This document shows positions 19,669 through 28,027 of a stretch of 38,865 bases of DNA, in pieces; position 1 is the stretch's first letter, and every line of letters starts with the position of its first letter. The notes beneath the pieces are model-generated. The model was not told the DNA's origin. It saw only the letters and a program-made list of their open reading frames with translations, and did not search any database. Made by a program: the position numbers and the translations under genes. The DNA is from Ruminococcus sp. (GTDB lineage: Bacteria; Bacillota; Clostridia; Oscillospirales; Ruminococcaceae), in NCBI GenBank assembly GCA_017534595.1, contig JAFXVY010000088.1:1-38865 (forward strand), read 5' to 3'.

Positions 19669-20814
19669 ATGAAAAAGAACAATGGACATCGGCGTGCAGC
19701 CGATATAATAACGGCGGCGGTGTTTGCGGTGTTCCTGTCGGTCTTCGCCGTAATGCTCATCGTCTCGAAGGACCGCGATTTCTCCGAAATGGAGAACCGC
19801 ACTCTGGCGCAGAAGCCGGAGGTATCCTTTGAGAACATCAAGTCGGGTAAGTTCACCGACGACCTTGAAAAGTATATCTCGGATCAGCTCTTCGCAAAGG
19901 ATCAGCTCGTCTCCCTCAAGACTGACTTTGACCGTCTGCTCGGGAAATCGTATCAGAACGGGGTGTATATCATCAAGGACGAGGGCACGGGAGACCTGCG
20001 CTTCGTTCAGCAGTACACCGAAAACAAAGCTCAGATAGACGAGAATATAGGTTATCTCAAAGAGTTCGCTCAGAGCATTGATATCCCCGCAGACCTTATA
20101 CTTGTCCCCAACGCCTCGGCGTTCATGAAGGACAGGCTGCCGACGGCTGCGGTATGTGACGATCAGCTCGGGAGCATTGAATATATCAGAGGGCTCGTCG
20201 GTGACAGCCTCGGCTTCTACCCGATGACGGATGCTCTCTCGGAAAAGCCGGAGCAGAACTACTACCGCACCGACCACCACTGGAACCGCACCGGCGCCAT
20301 GAGAGCCGTGACCGAGTATTTCAGCAAGTCGGGGCAGGCGGTGCCCGAGTACACGGATAATGTAAGCACCCTCAGAGGCAGCTTCTTCGGCACGCTCTAT
20401 TCAAAGGCTCCCTCGGCCTTCACCGAAGCCGACGACCTGACCTACGGCGACCCGGAGATCGAGTCGATCGAATGGGTGAGCGAGGGAAAGACCGCAGACA
20501 GTATCATCGACCGCTCCTTCCTTGACAAGAAGGACAAGTACGCTGCCCTGCTCGGGGGCAACTTCTCGCAGATCAGGATAAAGACCGGTCACGGGGGCGA
20601 AAAGGTACTCATTCTCAAGGACAGCTACGCCAACGCTGCCATGGAATTTCTCTGTGCCGGATACAGCGAGATCACGATGATCGACCTGAGATACTATCAT
20701 ATGCAGGAATACACTGTCGCGGAACTTTGCGAACAGTACGGCGCCGACAGGGTGATAATGCTCTACAACATGGACTTCATCAACGAGGATAAAAACTTCG
20801 TATGGCTGACCTGA
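19669..20814 (+). CDS. DHHW family protein (AlgJ/AlgX-like SGNH partner of MBOAT)
   Basis: A 381-residue protein with one N-terminal membrane segment (about 12-33) and an extracellular domain. The family motif Asp-His-His-Trp lies at about 202-205 within YYRTDHHWNRTGA, and the candidate nucleophile Ser 319 is in LILKDSYANA, the arrangement of AlgX/AlgJ-type acetyltransferases. FSEMENRTLAQKP near the start is also typical. It follows the MBOAT gene by 45 bp and is probably its extracellular transfer subunit. The ATG at 19669 is preceded by GAGGTG at correct spacing; the in-frame GTG at 19660 overlaps this site and is rejected. A second DHHW protein lies at 30879-32165. Confidence 0.88.
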   Translation: MKKNNGHRRAADIITAAVFAVFLSVFAVMLIVSKDRDFSEMENRTLAQKPEVSFENIKSGKFTDDLEKYISDQLFAKDQLVSLKTDFDRLLGKSYQNGVYIIKDEGTGDLRFVQQYTENKAQIDENIGYLKEFAQSIDIPADLILVPNASAFMKDRLPTAAVCDDQLGSIEYIRGLVGDSLGFYPMTDALSEKPEQNYYRTDHHWNRTGAMRAVTEYFSKSGQAVPEYTDNVSTLRGSFFGTLYSKAPSAFTEADDLTYGDPEIESIEWVSEGKTADSIIDRSFLDKKDKYAALLGGNFSQIRIKTGHGGEKVLILKDSYANAAMEFLCAGYSEITMIDLRYYHMQEYTVAELCEQYGADRVIMLYNMDFINEDKNFVWLT

Positions 20815-21826: not shown

Positions 21827-22657
21827 ATGGGAAAGCTATACATTGTCGGGACGCCGATAGGCAATCTCGGGGATATGACCTTCCGCGCCGTAGAGACGCT
21901 GAAGACGGTTGATTTCATCTGCGCCGAGGACACCCGCGTTACCTCGAAGCTGCTCAGCCATTTTGAGATCAGAAAGCCGCTCGTCAGCTGCCATGAACAC
22001 AATATCCGGCAGGTGGGCGAGGGCATCTGCGAGCGCATACTCGCCGGCGAGAACGCTGCAGCCGTCACCGATGCGGGGATGCCCTGCATCTCCGACCCTG
22101 GCGAGGAGCTGGTAAGGATGTGCTGCGAGCGGGGGATATCCGTCGAGGTAGTCCCGGGACCCACAGCGGCGATGTCTGCGCTGGCGGTAAGCGGTCTGCC
22201 GACCGGGAGATTTCAGTTCGAGGGCTTCCTGCCCACAGATAAGAAGCCGAGACTCGAGCGGCTTGCGGCGGTCAAGGACAGCACGCCGACGCTGATCTTC
22301 TACGAGGCGCCCCACAAGCTGCGGCGCACTCTCGACGATCTGCACAGCTTCCTCGGTGACAGGCACATCTCCCTCTGCCGGGAGCTGACCAAGATACATG
22401 AGGAAGTGCAGCGCGTGACGCTTTCCGAGGCGTGCGCATACTACGCCGAGCACGAGCCGAGAGGAGAATATGTACTTATCGTTGAGGGGGCAGCCGAAAA
22501 GGCCTCCGCAGAGACGATAGAGGAAGCCTTCGCACAGGTGGAGGCACTTGTGGCGAAGGGCGTCAGGGGTGCCGACGCCTGCAAGCAGATCGCTAAGGCG
22601 ACAGGCTTCTCAAAGGGTGAGCTTTACTCTATGCTGCTTGATAAAAATACCGTATGA
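21827..22657 (+). CDS. rsmI: 16S rRNA (cytidine-1402-2'-O)-methyltransferase
   Basis: A 276-residue SAM-dependent enzyme that methylates the ribose of C1402 in the 16S rRNA decoding centre. The tetrapyrrole-methylase fold is marked by GKLYIVGTPIGNLGDMTFRA, CAEDTRVTSKLL, VTDAGMPCISDPG and VPGPTAAMSALAVSGLP; the C-terminal RsmI helical domain follows. The ATG at 21827 has GGGAGG eight bases upstream; an in-frame GTG at 21821 is too close to that site. The stop codon lies inside the first palindrome at 22645-22664. Its grouping with dusB, rimI and a TrmN6-like gene resembles the yabB-rsmI grouping of Bacillus. Confidence 0.95.
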   Translation: MGKLYIVGTPIGNLGDMTFRAVETLKTVDFICAEDTRVTSKLLSHFEIRKPLVSCHEHNIRQVGEGICERILAGENAAAVTDAGMPCISDPGEELVRMCCERGISVEVVPGPTAAMSALAVSGLPTGRFQFEGFLPTDKKPRLERLAAVKDSTPTLIFYEAPHKLRRTLDDLHSFLGDRHISLCRELTKIHEEVQRVTLSEACAYYAEHEPRGEYVLIVEGAAEKASAETIEEAFAQVEALVAKGVRGADACKQIAKATGFSKGELYSMLLDKNTV

Positions 22658-22696
22658 GGTATTTTTATTTACAGTGAAATACAATATACGGTATTT
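22645..22696. promoter_or_regulatory. Tandem palindrome pair before rimI
   Basis: Two 20-bp dyads, at 22645-22664 (AAATACC-GTATGA-GGTATTT, perfect arms) and 22677-22696 (AAATACA-ATATAC-GGTATTT, one arm mismatch), start exactly 32 bp apart. The first contains the rsmI stop codon. The second abuts the GGTGA ribosome binding site of rimI. Same arrangement as at 23872 and 25423. Possible operator pair or paired mRNA hairpins; no sigma-A promoter was recognised here. Confidence 0.8.
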
Positions 22697-22706
22697 GGTG
22701 ATATAA

Positions 22707-23153
22707 ATGCTTGTTATCAGAGATATGACCCTCGCCGACTGTGAGGCAGTAGCGGCGCTGGATAAGGAAGCCTTCTCGAAGCCTATGAGTGCCGAGGGAT
22801 ATCAGCGCGAATACACCAACCCCAACTCGACCACACTGATCGCAGACTTGGACGGCAGCGTGATCGGCTTTGCGAACATCTGGAACATCTGCGGGGACGT
22901 CACCCTCAACAACATCGCGGTGACGGCTTCTCAGCGCTCAAACGGCGCAGGTACGGTGCTTATGCGGGAGATGTTCGTGCGCTTCGCGGGCTGCGATTTC
23001 ATCACGCTTGAGGTCAGGGCGTCCAATGAGGGCGCGATACGCTTCTACAAGCGCTTCGGCTTCCGGCAGGTGGGGCTGCGCCGGGATTTCTACGATCTCC
23101 CGAAGGAGGACGCGCTGCTGATGACGGTATATCTTGAGGACGCACGGAGGTAA
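22707..23153 (+). CDS. rimI: Ribosomal protein S18 alanine N-acetyltransferase (RimI-like GNAT)
   Basis: A 148-residue single-domain GNAT acetyltransferase. The RimI pattern is clear in FITLEVRASNEGAIRFYKRFGFRQVGLRRDFY followed by EDALLMTVYL. The acetyl-CoA loop normally reading R-G-x-G is QRSNGAG here, near residues 73-79. In bacteria RimI acetylates the N-terminus of ribosomal protein S18 and is often encoded with tsaB and tsaD. Here tsaD is two genes downstream and no tsaB or tsaE is seen in the window. The ATG at 22707 has GGTGAT upstream, immediately after the second palindrome. The stop is 2 bp before the methyltransferase start. Confidence 0.88.
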   Translation: MLVIRDMTLADCEAVAALDKEAFSKPMSAEGYQREYTNPNSTTLIADLDGSVIGFANIWNICGDVTLNNIAVTASQRSNGAGTVLMREMFVRFAGCDFITLEVRASNEGAIRFYKRFGFRQVGLRRDFYDLPKEDALLMTVYLEDARR

Positions 23154-23155
23154 CT

Positions 23156-23872
23156 ATGGCTGAGATAGAAGGGCTTTCGGTCGAAAAGCTGCACGACGGC
23201 ATCGAGATCGTGATCTCAAAGGAGCACCGCTTCGGCACCGACGCCTTCCTGCTCGCAGACTTCGCCGCACCGCGGCACAAGGACAGCGTCTGCGATCTGT
23301 GTACCGGCAGCGGGATCATAGCGCTGCTGATGTATCAGAATTTCAAGCCGAAGCATATCGAAGCGGTGGAGATACAGCAGGAGGCTCACGAGCTTTTGAA
23401 AATGACCCTCTCCCGCACCGGGATAGACTGCATAACGCCGATCCTCGGGGATCTGAGAGAGTACCGCCCCGAAAAGGAGCTGGATCTCATCACCTGCAAC
23501 CCGCCCTACAAGATCAACGGGACCGGGGCGAAGAACGATACCGAGGCTTCGTCGATAGCGCGGCACGAGCTGATGTGTACGATCGGGGACGTGTGCGCGG
23601 CGGCAAAGCGTTCGCTGCGTTTCGGCGGGAGGCTGTGCGTCTGCAACAGACCCGAGCGGCTCTGTGATATAATGGTCGCGATGCGCGAAAACGGAATTGA
23701 GCCAAAGCGTGTACGGTTCGTCAGCAAGACCCCGGAGACGGCGCCGTGGCTCGTGCTTGTGGACGGCCGCAAGGGCGGCACGAGCTTTCTGAAGGTCGAG
23801 CCCCAGCTCTATACCATGAACCCCGACGGGACATTCACCGATGAATTGAAAAGGATATACAGACAGATATAA
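23156..23872 (+). CDS. TrmN6/YabB-like tRNA (adenine-N6)-methyltransferase
   Basis: A 238-residue Rossmann-fold methyltransferase. HRFGTDAFLLADFA near 22-35 and CDLCTGSGIIALLM (SAM-binding motif I) are typical of the TrmN6/YfiC/YabB group, and the catalytic motif NPPY lies in ITCNPPYKING. E. coli TrmN6 methylates A37 of tRNA1(Val); the target in this organism is inferred only. The start is 2 bp after rimI, giving a tightly coupled two-gene unit. The last base of the stop codon overlaps the next palindrome pair. Confidence 0.87.
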   Translation: MAEIEGLSVEKLHDGIEIVISKEHRFGTDAFLLADFAAPRHKDSVCDLCTGSGIIALLMYQNFKPKHIEAVEIQQEAHELLKMTLSRTGIDCITPILGDLREYRPEKELDLITCNPPYKINGTGAKNDTEASSIARHELMCTIGDVCAAAKRSLRFGGRLCVCNRPERLCDIMVAMRENGIEPKRVRFVSKTPETAPWLVLVDGRKGGTSFLKVEPQLYTMNPDGTFTDELKRIYRQI

Positions 23873-23923
23873 AATACCATATAAGGTATTTTGTGATTTA
23901 CATAAATACCTTATACGGTATTC
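23872..23923. promoter_or_regulatory. Tandem palindrome pair before tsaD
   Basis: Dyads at 23872-23891 (AAATACC-ATATAA-GGTATTT, perfect arms) and 23904-23923 (AAATACC-TTATAC-GGTATTC, one mismatch) again start 32 bp apart with a 12-bp spacer. The second is followed within one base by the GGAG site of tsaD. Confidence 0.8.
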
Positions 23924-23936
23924 CGGAGATGATACA

Positions 23937-24968
23937 ATGAGAATACTTGCAATAGAATCCTCCTGCGACGAGACCGCCTGCGCGATCGTCGAGGACGGTG
24001 TGAAGATACTTTCAAATATAGTTGCGACACAGATCTCGGAGCACAGGCTATACGGCGGTGTCGTTCCCGAGATCGCCTCGCGTATGCACGCCGAGTGCAT
24101 ATATCAGGTGGTCGAGGAGGCGCTTTGCGAGGCCTCCTGCACCCTTGCGAACATCGACGCGATAGCCGTGACCTACGCGCCGGGACTTATCGGTGCGCTG
24201 CTGGTCGGCATAAGCTTTGCCAAGGGTCTTGCTCTGTCCACCGGCAAGCCGCTCATACCCGTACACCACATCGCGGGGCACATCGCCGCGAACTACATCT
24301 CACACCCCGATCTCAGGCCGCCGTATCTCTGCCTTGTGGTCAGCGGCGGGCATTCGCATATCGTTGAGGTGCTGGATTATACCACCTATCACGTTGTCGG
24401 CAGGACCCATGACGACGCGGCGGGCGAGTGCTTTGACAAGGTCGCGCGCACACTCGGCTACGAGTACCCCGGCGGACGGTTCATCGACTCGGCGGCACGC
24501 TTCGGCAACCCGATAGCCTACCGCTTCCCCCACCCGAAGGTGGACGGCTGCGAGTATGATTTCTCATTCTCCGGGCTCAAGACGGCGGTGATAAACCTTG
24601 TCCACAACGCGGAGCAGAAGGGCGAAACACTGGTGCGCGAGGACATCGCCGCATCCTTCCAGCGGACTGTCTGCGAGATACTTGTGGGCAAGACGATGGC
24701 TGCCGCCGAGGCTCTCGGCTACAAGAACATCGGCCTCGCGGGGGGCGTATCCGCCAACTCGGGAGTCCGCAGCGCACTCAAACAGGCCTGCGATCAGCGC
24801 GGGTTCAGGCTGTTCATGCCCGAGCTGCGCTATTGCGGCGACAATGCGGCAATGATCGGCTGCCAGGCCTACTACGATTTTCTTGCCGGCAAGCGCGCCG
24901 ACCAGTCGCTCAACGGCATCGCAACGCTCTCCCTCGACAAGCTTGCTGCCGGTGAGGGAGGACTTTGA
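23937..24968 (+). CDS. tsaD: tRNA N6-adenosine threonylcarbamoyltransferase
   Basis: A 343-residue Kae1/TsaD protein that transfers threonylcarbamoyl to A37 of ANN-decoding tRNAs (t6A), working with TsaB and TsaE. LAIESSCDETACAIV opens the ASKHA ATPase fold. The metal-binding pair His 111 and His 115 lies in HHIAGHIAANY. LVVSGGHSHI, DDAAGECFDKVAR, YPGGRFIDSAA, FSFSGLKTA and GGVSANSGVR are all intact, so the enzyme should be active. The ATG at 23937 has GGAGA upstream. The stop codon directly abuts the next gene. tsaB and tsaE must lie elsewhere in the genome. Confidence 0.97.
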   Translation: MRILAIESSCDETACAIVEDGVKILSNIVATQISEHRLYGGVVPEIASRMHAECIYQVVEEALCEASCTLANIDAIAVTYAPGLIGALLVGISFAKGLALSTGKPLIPVHHIAGHIAANYISHPDLRPPYLCLVVSGGHSHIVEVLDYTTYHVVGRTHDDAAGECFDKVARTLGYEYPGGRFIDSAARFGNPIAYRFPHPKVDGCEYDFSFSGLKTAVINLVHNAEQKGETLVREDIAASFQRTVCEILVGKTMAAAEALGYKNIGLAGGVSANSGVRSALKQACDQRGFRLFMPELRYCGDNAAMIGCQAYYDFLAGKRADQSLNGIATLSLDKLAAGEGGL

Positions 24969-25424
24969 ATGGACGCCTTTGAAGATAAGCTCGGGGATGT
25001 CTTCATTGCCTTCGGGCGCGGACGCACTGCGGTGCTCTCCACAAGCGAGGGCGGGAGGGTATCCTCCCGAATGATGAGCGTCGTGCTGATCGACGGAGAG
25101 TTTTACTTCCAGACAGACCGCACGATGAGAAAGTACCGCCAGCTCTGCGCTGACCCTAATGCGGCACTGTGCGCGGACAACATACAGATAGAGGGAACGT
25201 GCAGAGAGCTCGGACACCCCGCCGGGCACCCGGAGTTCTGCGAGGCATTCAAAAGCACCTTTCGCGGCTCGTTTGACGCCTACACGAACCTCTCGAACGA
25301 AAGGCTCTTTGCGCTCACACCTGTATATATCAAGCGCTGGTTATATATCGACGGCAAGCCATATACCGAGACATTCGATATACCGGGCAGAGTATACGAG
25401 CTGAAAGCATACATAAGCGAGTAA
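24969..25424 (+). CDS. Pyridoxamine 5'-phosphate oxidase-like flavoprotein
   Basis: A 151-residue protein with the split-barrel FMN-binding fold of the PNPOx-like superfamily: TAVLSTSEGGRVSSRMMSVV, DGEFYFQTDRTMRKYRQL and NAALCADNIQIEGTCREL are the characteristic strands. It is too short for a classical PdxH, so it is better called a PNPOx-like or heme/F420-type relative with unknown substrate. The ATG follows the tsaD stop without a gap and GGTGAGGGAGG lies inside the tsaD end, so translation is probably coupled. A functional link to t6A formation is not evident. Its stop codon overlaps the third palindrome pair by two bases. Confidence 0.82.
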   Translation: MDAFEDKLGDVFIAFGRGRTAVLSTSEGGRVSSRMMSVVLIDGEFYFQTDRTMRKYRQLCADPNAALCADNIQIEGTCRELGHPAGHPEFCEAFKSTFRGSFDAYTNLSNERLFALTPVYIKRWLYIDGKPYTETFDIPGRVYELKAYISE

Positions 25425-25474
25425 ATACTGCATAAGGTATTTGCGTTATGATTAAAATACCGTATATGGTATTT
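25423..25474. promoter_or_regulatory. Tandem palindrome pair before polA
   Basis: Dyads at 25423-25442 (AAATACT-GCATAA-GGTATTT, one mismatch) and 25455-25474 (AAATACC-GTATAT-GGTATTT, perfect arms) start 32 bp apart with a 12-bp spacer. The second is followed by TGGAGG, the polA ribosome binding site. Confidence 0.8.
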
Positions 25475-25486
25475 TGGAGGTAGAGT

Positions 25487-28027
25487 ATGAAGCTTCTTGC
25501 AATAGACGGCAACAGTATAATGAACCGTGCATTCTACGGGATAAAGGCTCTTGCGAACTCAAAGGGTATCCCCACCAATGCGCTCACCGGTTTTATGAAC
25601 ATATATCTCAAGGAGATCGCCGAGGTGCAGCCCGACTGCGTCGCGGTGGCTTTTGATATGCGTGCGCCCACGTTCAGGCACAAGGCCTCCGCCGAGTACA
25701 AGGCCAACAGAAAGGGCATGCCGGAGGAGCTGGCTCAGCAGATGCCTCTCATCAAGCAGCTGCTCGGTCTGCTCGGGATAAAGACCGTCGAGTGCGAGGG
25801 CTATGAGGCCGACGATATCCTCGGCACTCTCTCCAAGACCGCTGCTGACAGCGGCAGCGAGTGCTGCATCCTGACCGGCGACCGCGACAGCCTCCAGCTC
25901 GTCTCGGACAAGGTCACGGTGCGGCTTGCCGGCACCAAGGAGACCAAGGTCTACACCCCCGAACGCATCAATGAGGAATACGGCATCGAGCCGAGGCAGT
26001 TCATCGAGGTCAAGGCGCTCATGGGCGACAGCTCCGACAACTACGGCGGAGTCAAGGGAATCGGCGAAAAGGGCGCATTCGAGCTTATCAGAAAGTACGG
26101 CTCGGTGGACGAGCTCTACACTCACCTTGATGAGATCAAGGCCGGTTCGGCGCTGAGAAACAACCTCGAGAGCGGTCATCAGGACGCCCTCGACAGCCGC
26201 TTTCTTGCAGAGATCTGCCTTACCGCTCCCATCGAATCCGCCACCGAGAGCTACCGCCTTGCCGCCCCGGACGCAGAGGGCGTGAAGCGTTTTCTTGCCG
26301 AGCTTGAGATGTTCAAGCTCATAGACCGCCTCGAGCTGGGCTCCGACGATGCGGCGCCGGTAACGGAAAACCGCGTAAAGGCTTCGGATCTGCCCGCGTT
26401 TGAGGTCTGTGAGCTGAGTAAGGATACCCTCACCGCTCACGGAAACGAATACAGCTGCTTTACCTGCTCAGACGGCAGGCTTGCCGTGGTCTGGGGGCAG
26501 AGCATATATCACACCGAAGACCCGGAGCTCATGCTTGAATATTTCTCCTGCGAGGGCGAGAAGAGCTGCCTCGAGGCCAAGGCCGCCCACAAGGCCGCCA
26601 TGCTCGCGGGCAGGGAGCTTCGCGGGCTGACCTTCGCCTGCGATCTGGCGGGCTACCTGCTCAATTCGCTGACCAAGACCTACACCGCCGAGAGCCTTGC
26701 GCTTTCCTACGGCGTGATCTACCGCTCGGATGCGGGAGAGTATTCCGACGCCGCAACGGTCCCTGCGCTGACGGAATGTCTGCGCCTGAAGCTCGAGGCG
26801 GAGGATATGATGAAGCTCTATAACGACATCGAGCTGCCCCTCTGCGAAGTGCTGGCTTCTATGGAGGTCTGCGGTGTCCGCGCCGATGCCGACGGCATCA
26901 GGGAATTCGGCGCCGCGCTGGAAAATGACATCTCCTCCCTCGAGGCTCAGATCTATGAGAATGCCGGCAAAGAGTTCAACATCCTCTCGCCCAAGCAGCT
27001 CGGAACGGTGCTGTTCGAGGATCTCGGCCTCCCCTGCCGCAAGAAGACCAAGTCCGGCTACTCCACCGATGCAGAGGTTCTCGAGGAGCTCGTCAACAGG
27101 CACCCGATAGTTCAGCAGGTGCTCGATTACCGTACCCTCACAAAGCTCAGATCCACCTATGTTGAGGGTCTGCTCAAGGAGATCCGCGAGGACGGTAGGG
27201 TACACTCCGTCTTCAAGCAGACCGAGACCCGTACCGGGCGCATATCCTCGGCGGAGCCCAATATGCAGAACATCCCCGTGCGCAAGGAGCTGGGGCGCAA
27301 TATGAGAAAATTCTTCATCGCCGCGGAGGGCTGCACCCTCGTCGATGCCGACTACAGCCAGATAGAGCTGCGTGTGCTCGCATCGGTCTGCGGGGATGAG
27401 AATATGCAGGCCGCCTTCAAGGAGGGGCGGGACATCCACCGCTCTACGGCGGCGCAGGTGTTCGACCTGCCCGAGGACTTCGTCTCGCCGGAGATGAGGT
27501 CAGCGGCAAAGGCCGTAAACTTCGGCATAATCTACGGCATAGGCCCCTTCTCGCTGGCAAAGGATATCGGCGTCTCGCAGAAGGAAGCCAAGCAGTATAT
27601 CCAGAGCTATCTTGCAAACTACCCCAAGGTCTCGCAGTTCATGGACAAGACCGTCGAGGACGGCATCAGGAACGGCTATGTCACCACGATCTTCGGCAGG
27701 CGCAGACCCATACCCGAGCTGCGTGCCGGCAACAAGACCGTTCAGGCCTTCGGCAAGCGTGCCGCCATGAACGCCCCGATACAGGGCGCTGCGGCGGATA
27801 TAATCAAGCTCGCCATGGTCAAGGTATACAGGAGATTGAAGTCCGAAAATTTGGACGCAAAGCTTATCCTGCAAGTACACGACGAGCTTATAATAGAATG
27901 CTCGGAGGAGCTGGCGGAGCGGGTATCCGCGCTGCTCAAGGAGGAAATGGAGAATGTTGTGAGCCTCGCCGTCCCCATGACGGCTGACGTCCACAGCGGA
28001 AAGAGCTGGTATATCGCCAAGGGGTGA
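25487..28027 (+). CDS. polA: DNA polymerase I
   Basis: An 846-residue family A polymerase for gap filling and primer removal. The N-terminal 5'-3' exonuclease (LAIDGNSIMNRAFYG, CEGYEADDILGTLS, LTGDRDSLQLV, GDSSDNYGGVKGIGEKGA) occupies about residues 1-290. The middle region has the spacing of a 3'-5' exonuclease domain but no recognisable DxE motif, so proofreading is probably lost, as in Bacillus and Thermus Pol I. The polymerase domain is intact: motif A DADYSQIELR, motif B KAVNFGIIYG, motif C QVHDELIIE. The ATG at 25487 follows GGAGG next to a palindrome pair. Confidence 0.97.
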   Translation: MKLLAIDGNSIMNRAFYGIKALANSKGIPTNALTGFMNIYLKEIAEVQPDCVAVAFDMRAPTFRHKASAEYKANRKGMPEELAQQMPLIKQLLGLLGIKTVECEGYEADDILGTLSKTAADSGSECCILTGDRDSLQLVSDKVTVRLAGTKETKVYTPERINEEYGIEPRQFIEVKALMGDSSDNYGGVKGIGEKGAFELIRKYGSVDELYTHLDEIKAGSALRNNLESGHQDALDSRFLAEICLTAPIESATESYRLAAPDAEGVKRFLAELEMFKLIDRLELGSDDAAPVTENRVKASDLPAFEVCELSKDTLTAHGNEYSCFTCSDGRLAVVWGQSIYHTEDPELMLEYFSCEGEKSCLEAKAAHKAAMLAGRELRGLTFACDLAGYLLNSLTKTYTAESLALSYGVIYRSDAGEYSDAATVPALTECLRLKLEAEDMMKLYNDIELPLCEVLASMEVCGVRADADGIREFGAALENDISSLEAQIYENAGKEFNILSPKQLGTVLFEDLGLPCRKKTKSGYSTDAEVLEELVNRHPIVQQVLDYRTLTKLRSTYVEGLLKEIREDGRVHSVFKQTETRTGRISSAEPNMQNIPVRKELGRNMRKFFIAAEGCTLVDADYSQIELRVLASVCGDENMQAAFKEGRDIHRSTAAQVFDLPEDFVSPEMRSAAKAVNFGIIYGIGPFSLAKDIGVSQKEAKQYIQSYLANYPKVSQFMDKTVEDGIRNGYVTTIFGRRRPIPELRAGNKTVQAFGKRAAMNAPIQGAAADIIKLAMVKVYRRLKSENLDAKLILQVHDELIIECSEELAERVSALLKEEMENVVSLAVPMTADVHSGKSWYIAKG

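Follow-up and report, generated by a model that had tools for sequence, protein, structure and literature searches.

What are the paired palindromes that precede rimI, tsaD and polA in a gene cluster of Ruminococcus sp., and why are the two members of each pair held at one distance from each other? The window considered here is the whole of a stretch of 38,865 nucleotides (contig JAFXVY010000088.1, positions 1 to 38,865 of the forward strand) from assembly GCA_017534595.1, which comprises 2.88 Mb in 144 contigs and is 93% complete. An initial annotation of the window, made from the letters alone, had pointed out the palindromes and suggested that they are read by a DNA-binding protein. After comparison with related genomes we consider it probable that the pairs are tandem DNA operators for a putative dimer-of-dimers regulator.

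Paired boxes in the window and in the assembly

The window contains six boxes of the form AAATACC-N6-GGTATTT, which make up three pairs, one each before rimI, tsaD and polA. The two boxes of a pair start exactly 32 bp apart in all three cases, and the 12-bp spacers between them are unlike each other. This arrangement and the core variants of individual boxes had both been described in the initial annotation, and both are borne out position by position. All boxes are given on the forward strand. The rimI pair consists of a box with perfect arms and the core GTATGA (22645..22664), which overlaps the rsmI stop codon, and of a box 32 bp further on (22677..22696) with C changed to A at -4, positions being counted from the centre of the dyad. 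In the tsaD pair, the first box (23872..23891) has perfect arms and has one base in common with the stop codon of the preceding methyltransferase gene, and the second (23904..23923) has T changed to C at +10 and abuts the ribosome binding site CGGAG. The first polA box (25423..25442) has C changed to T at -4 and the core GCATAA and overlaps the stop codon of a pyridoxamine 5'-phosphate oxidase-like (PNPOx-like) gene; the second (25455..25474) has perfect arms and abuts the ribosome binding site TGGAGG. In the window, every first box overlaps the preceding gene's stop codon (these genes end at 22657, 23872 and 25424), and each second box abuts a Shine-Dalgarno-like sequence of the gene that follows.

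With up to three mismatches allowed, the window yields seven matches, the six boxes and one three-mismatch match at 19706, compared with a mean of 0.57 in shuffled windows, none of which (0/100) gave seven. At the same threshold the paired motif with its 32-bp period occurs in only three places in the assembly, and the reversed control pattern does not occur at all. Single boxes in the assembly number seven, the six and one other, which lies between two reading frames that look yqfD-like and phoH-like by eye. The genome-wide search for copies, spacings and downstream genes that the initial annotation had called for thus confines the pairs to rimI, tsaD and polA, and the lack of many copies at varied positions rules out a dispersed palindromic repeat.

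Conservation in the genus

Our sample of the genus comprised 16 genomes, that of the window included, 14 of which have the full tsaD locus (G012 gave no match at the locus and G015 weak matches only). Pairs are present in 11 of these 14 genomes. All 11 site-bearing genomes have a pair before rimI (G005 has two) and a pair before tsaD, and a clean pair precedes polA in seven of them, so that the conservation before the same orthologues, which the initial annotation had proposed to look for, is observed directly. The pairs stay with polA and rimI despite changes of the preceding gene, which before polA is the PNPOx-like gene in the genome of the window (G000) and before rimI is a gene of 115 amino acids in G003 and G008. 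The TsaD tree is poorly resolved and fits a loss of the sites in G004, G010 and G011 as well as their original absence.

Spacing and identity were analysed for 32 pairs from a search window of 28-36 bp, outside of which a 19-bp polA doublet in G005 falls. The period is 32 bp in 21 pairs, 31 bp in six and 33 bp in five. The proposed fixed helical phase with free spacers thus extends, within that search window and with the G005 polA doublet as an exception, from the window to 32/32 pairs in 11 genomes, all with a period of 31-33 bp. Boxes at the same gene in different genomes show an identity of 0.78-0.84, whereas spacers show 0.30-0.40, close to the 0.30 expected from composition; it is therefore the arms and their distance that are kept, and the sequence in between is free. 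All 64 boxes have C at -5 and G at +5. T is found at -7 in 64/64 and A at +7 in 63/64 of them, and C at -4 and G at +4 prevail (47/64 and 57/64). The period also tends to be shared within a genome (33 bp three times in G009, 31 bp in two pairs of G003 and in two of G008): equal periods were obtained in 23 of 32 comparisons within genomes, with a shuffle P of 0.002, or of 0.0099 when G008, possibly a close relative of G003, was dropped, values not otherwise corrected for kinship.

Base preferences were compared across the dyad in the 60 boxes of 30 clean pairs, which are the 32 pairs without two from G001, a degenerate pair at polA and a pair located in a reading frame. At positions 1 to 4 on either side the cosine was 0.93-1.00 after complementing and 0.00-0.59 without. 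Since these dyad-symmetric preferences cover what would be the loop of an RNA hairpin, they are as predicted for a double-stranded site that is read by a symmetric dimer.

Two features that the initial annotation had read from the window hold there and in part beyond it. The combination of one perfect and one imperfect copy recurs in 20 of the 30 clean pairs; in two pairs both copies are perfect and in eight neither is (two-sided Fisher P 0.057). Such a pattern would follow if a long hairpin next to the ribosome binding site were avoided, but it is suggestive only. The contact of the second box with the ribosome binding site is lost in the tsaD pairs of G003 and G008, whose ends lie some 43 and 71 bp upstream of the start codon.

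Two loci in relatives deserve mention as observations in their own right. At the G005 polA locus (L040, reverse strand, 2607-2645) the boxes have no spacer between them, as if it had been deleted, which makes this a natural phasing variant. In G001 a reading frame between tsaD and polA contains a pair with a period of 33 bp (L050, 2568-2620), a pair that may have become part of a gene.

Nature of the paired sites

If the pairs are operators, one symmetric dimer of a DNA-binding protein would sit on each 20-bp dyad, and two such dimers, about three turns (31-33 bp) apart, would join on the same helix face into a dimer of dimers. The initial annotation had likewise favoured two dimers of one protein on the same face, a reading now supported, at the level of sequence, by the conserved phasing and the lack of RNA covariation. 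In Lac-type and other tetrameric repressors, a single tetramer can bind two dyads owing to their helical phasing, and the cluster would be alike in having phased operators bound by one tetramer. Such repressors usually form longer loops, however, and are often accompanied by a linked regulator gene, whereas the common neighbourhood of the cluster contains none. The operators would probably act on rimI with the methyltransferase gene, on tsaD and on polA as one switch, in that the bound protein either hides an internal start site or stands in the way of RNA polymerase moving through the operon; with no conserved promoter found in the pairs, both modes are conceivable. The period shared within a genome looks as if it might have been fitted to the form of the protein present in that genome. 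We infer the existence of such a protein, one and the same at the three sites, working as a repressor in tetrameric form. A regulon confined to the cluster, in which a dimer-of-dimers regulator with NrdR-like geometry and a code of its own would jointly control rimI, the methyltransferase gene, tsaD and polA with a period tuned in each genome, is possible, and we put it forward tentatively.

Several observations speak against operators of this kind. The pairs include no conserved sigma-70 promoter, and no regulator gene is found among the genes common to the compared neighbourhoods. G004, G010 and G011 are without any pair, and in G004 about 65 bp before polA hold no box. The polA pair is degenerate in G001 and absent in G003 and G008, and the polA boxes of G005 start 19 bp apart. 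Among the extra single-box matches listed in the genus genomes other than G007 and G015, no autoregulated regulator stands out, and a partner box at 31-33 bp was found for none of the 15 that were tested.

The main alternative raised in the initial annotation was that the pairs act in the mRNA, as single hairpins or as one long two-box hairpin by the ribosome binding site, and thereby control translation or processing by RNase. The second box does mostly abut the ribosome binding site, and the folding of the three natural stretches is good relative to shuffles (z -3.9 to -4.4), but this is due to their palindromic make-up. At the variable positions complementary bases are not in surplus, either inside a box or between the two boxes of a pair (between boxes, 508 of 600 cells are complementary, compared with 514.5 in shuffles; P of at least as many, 0.98), natural pairs are less stable than pairs recombined across loci (mean -14.54 versus -15.14 kcal/mol, in 30/30 trials), the preferences in the would-be loop are dyad-symmetric, and no Rfam family scored above its gathering score. 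Tested in this way, the hairpin alternative found no support, and we regard it as very unlikely. Autogenous control through mimicry of a tRNA anticodon loop was also considered and rejected, by reasoning only with respect to the loop, which does not have the pattern of U33 and A37, and for want of RNA covariation. As for a local mobile or repeated element, similar to repetitive extragenic palindromic (REP) sequences or miniature inverted-repeat transposable elements, that copied itself into the three junctions and has no regulatory role, site-free relatives have tight junctions before rimI (G004, G011) and before tsaD (G010, G011), and the pairs therefore look like insertions; moreover, G011, which has no boxes, carries between tsaD and polA (L198:693-1316) a gene weakly similar to IS200-type transposases (PF01797, 23.6 bits, cut-off 23). 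REP sequences and REPINs (REP doublets forming hairpins) also resemble the pairs as short paired palindromes in gene junctions, but they are mobile and present in tens to hundreds of copies, whereas the cluster has three pairs at fixed genes. As the assembly contains no further paired copies, and in 11 genomes the pairs are at the same three genes, with conserved arms and randomised spacers, this explanation is largely refuted and deserves hardly any credence. The TATA core, the richness in AT and the position directly upstream of genes would also suit unusual internal promoter elements rather than protein operators. Yet neither the spacers nor the 15 bp before the first box contain a conserved -35 element, a promoter scan found three sites compared with 1.9 in shuffles, and a promoter would need no paired dyads, so that this possibility, too, appears highly improbable.

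Comparison with NrdR

The known precedent for the geometry is the NrdR box pair, which was not named in the initial annotation. NrdR is a repressor that senses dATP and ATP, and the consensus of its box is acaCwAtATaTwGtgt. The 16-bp NrdR boxes are 15-16 bp apart, with 14-17 bp tolerated (PMC12051234), a tetramer binds the pairs, most readily when a whole number of turns separates the boxes (PMC12051234, PMC9110341, PMC12176259), and GC pairs nine positions apart are read (PMC9110341). The pairs of the cluster resemble these in being palindromes about three turns apart with a tolerance of about 1 bp either way and a central AT. Their period of 31-33 bp corresponds to 15-17 bp between 16-bp boxes in 32/32 pairs, and the C and G at -5 and +5, present in 64/64 boxes, are nine positions apart. 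Binding of the pairs by NrdR, which would couple polA, tsaD and rimI to the deoxynucleoside triphosphate (dNTP) pool, is further favoured by the single NrdR in the genome, by a target outside the ribonucleotide reductase (RNR) genes, topA in Pseudomonas (PMC4409342), and by the reported grouping of nrdR with polA and further genes in certain species (PMC4898720). The pairs of the cluster are found at rimI, tsaD and polA only and not at the RNR or nrdR genes, where NrdR operators as a rule are located, a rule to which topA in Pseudomonas (PMC4409342) is an exception. In sequence, the cluster boxes mostly have C/G in place of A/T at positions -4 and +4 (C in 47/64, G in 57/64), T/A in place of C/G at -7 and +7, and additional AAA/TTT arms.

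A comparison within the same genomes was provided by nrdD, of which the genome has one copy with an ATP-cone. Upstream of nrdD (L013:1762-1910 in G000, C36) lies an NrdR-type pair, ATACTATATACTTG and a box near CCACAAGATGTTGTGG 31-32 bp further on, which is found in all 15 of the 16 genus genomes that have enough upstream sequence (G015 is cut off by the contig end). We read ATACTATATACTTG as overlying the nrdD -10. In 15/15 genomes the downstream box shows A/T at -4, T at +4 together with G at +7, and in 14/15 it shows C at -7, whereas the cluster boxes have A at +7 in 63/64. Cluster and nrdD boxes agree in their central AT, in their period and in having C at -5 and G at +5. The nrdD spacing, however, is 32 bp in 14/15 genomes and 31 bp in G009, whereas the cluster spacing is 33 bp in G009 and 31 bp in G003 and G008; the nrdD spacing thus does not follow that of the cluster in the same genome. 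In the assembly search the paired cluster motif was not found at nrdD. Two codes in the same genomes, together with spacings that do not co-vary, argue for two proteins, although an NrdR of broad tolerance is conceivable. The putative regulator is thus probably not NrdR, and we consider binding of the pairs by NrdR unlikely.

A second nrdD pair near -590 was rejected as a standard for NrdR, its arms being terminator-like in G000. A scan of 30 loci of ATP-cone genes (24 from other genera, six from this genus) gave canonical NrdR pairs within the cut-off upstream of two, one of them in G011, which is too few for a model. The Zn-ribbon of NrdR keeps D15 and R17 both in five site-bearing genomes and in the site-free G011 and does not discriminate between them. 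Upstream of nrdR itself, in L012 and in relatives, inspection by eye shows two sequences that resemble boxes, with a distance of 31-32 bp; the first overlaps TGTGGTATAAT, and the two suggest autoregulation of NrdR.

The gene cluster

In the dusB-rsmI-rimI-methyltransferase-tsaD-polA cluster of the window, the pairs occupy the only junctions that are roomy enough (49-64 bp). The genes from rimI to polA are on the forward strand. The rimI gene (22707..23153) encodes the ribosomal protein S18-alanine N-acetyltransferase (TIGR01575), tsaD (23937..24968) a subunit of the threonylcarbamoyltransferase for N6-threonylcarbamoyladenosine at tRNA position 37 (t6A37; TIGR03723), and polA (25487..28027) DNA polymerase I (TIGR00593); together with dusB and rsmI, all three are above their NCBIfam cut-offs. 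Starting 2 bp after rimI, a methyltransferase gene with an MTS domain (23156..23872) is TrmN6-like, but the label TrmN6 given to it initially is not established, as the match to the TrmN equivalog reaches 49.6 bits and the cut-off is 350. The PNPOx-like gene (24969..25424) has no homologue in the compared stretches of seven other genomes.

Neighbourhoods were compared for G000, G002, G003, G006, G008, G013 and G014 and for a 5-kb stretch of G011, with families assigned by searches of the G000 copies only. Common to them are lipase-like, DUF4358, MBOAT and DHHW genes, dusB, rsmI, rimI, the methyltransferase gene, tsaD and polA, and genes for an ATP-binding cassette (ABC) ATPase and an ion channel.

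Distribution beyond the cluster

In a mixed sample of 120 genomes (the 16 of the genus and 104 others), a search for pairs at exactly 32 bp with up to two mismatches gave matches in six genomes, all of this genus, and in 0/104 of the others; this is a floor, as the 32-bp search missed five of the 11 pair-bearing genomes. At the tsaD locus, neither NrdR-like nor cluster-like pairs were found under the cut-offs in 24 loci of other genera. Class-wide, three of 391 genomes had one pair match each with two or three mismatches, and the reversed control gave matches in two. All three were rejected; none is at the cluster: that in G274 is between two reading frames, that in G415 is at a contig end after a gene, and that in G269 falls in a divergent gap, upstream of a repressor-like gene whose product, judged by eye, resembles a helix-turn-helix protein. 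At L155 (1501-1580) of G269, which belongs to another family of the class, there is a weak pair with the repeated unit TTACRGGGTA/TACCCTATAGGGTG, possibly a type of operator.

Further single-box matches in the genus genomes number at least 19; all 19 that were listed were inspected, and 11 of these lie inside long reading frames. A recurrent site, AGATACC[CG]TATATGGTAAWW, is found in five genomes inside one long reading frame (gyrA by eye) and was taken as a coding coincidence rather than as the mark of an autoregulated regulator. The sequence CAATACCCTATAGGGTGTTG and a near-mirror of it (G002, G014) are located at a reading frame that is integrase-like by eye. The other 12 of the 19 listed matches occur in one genome each and at no recurrent gene. 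A single box-like site, AAGTACCATATAGGGTATTA, is found in G012 (L187, 1985-2004) between a -10-like TATAAT and a gene start that is rubredoxin-like by eye. A search of IMG/VR for a link to phages gave no match for the paired motif and two for the single box.

Implications

To our knowledge, no connection between t6A modification and RimI on the one hand and the transcription of DNA polymerase I on the other has been described, and our literature search found no paper combining rimI, tsaD and polA with an operator or repressor. Among the matches listed, searches on the arm sequences returned no bacterial regulon by title and searches on NrdR in Ruminococcus nothing by title; a search on palindromes between genes at tsaD or polA in Ruminococc- returned nothing on point by title.

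Should NrdR bind the pairs, its code would be widened, and polA and tsaD would be added to the dNTP-sensing regulon. If the pairs are operators of a regulator of their own, they would offer a route to a new regulator and, with versions of 31, 32 and 33 bp in related genomes, a compact natural test of helix phasing. The upkeep of translation, through acetylation of S18 and t6A modification of tRNA, and the repair of gaps in DNA would then be under one switch.

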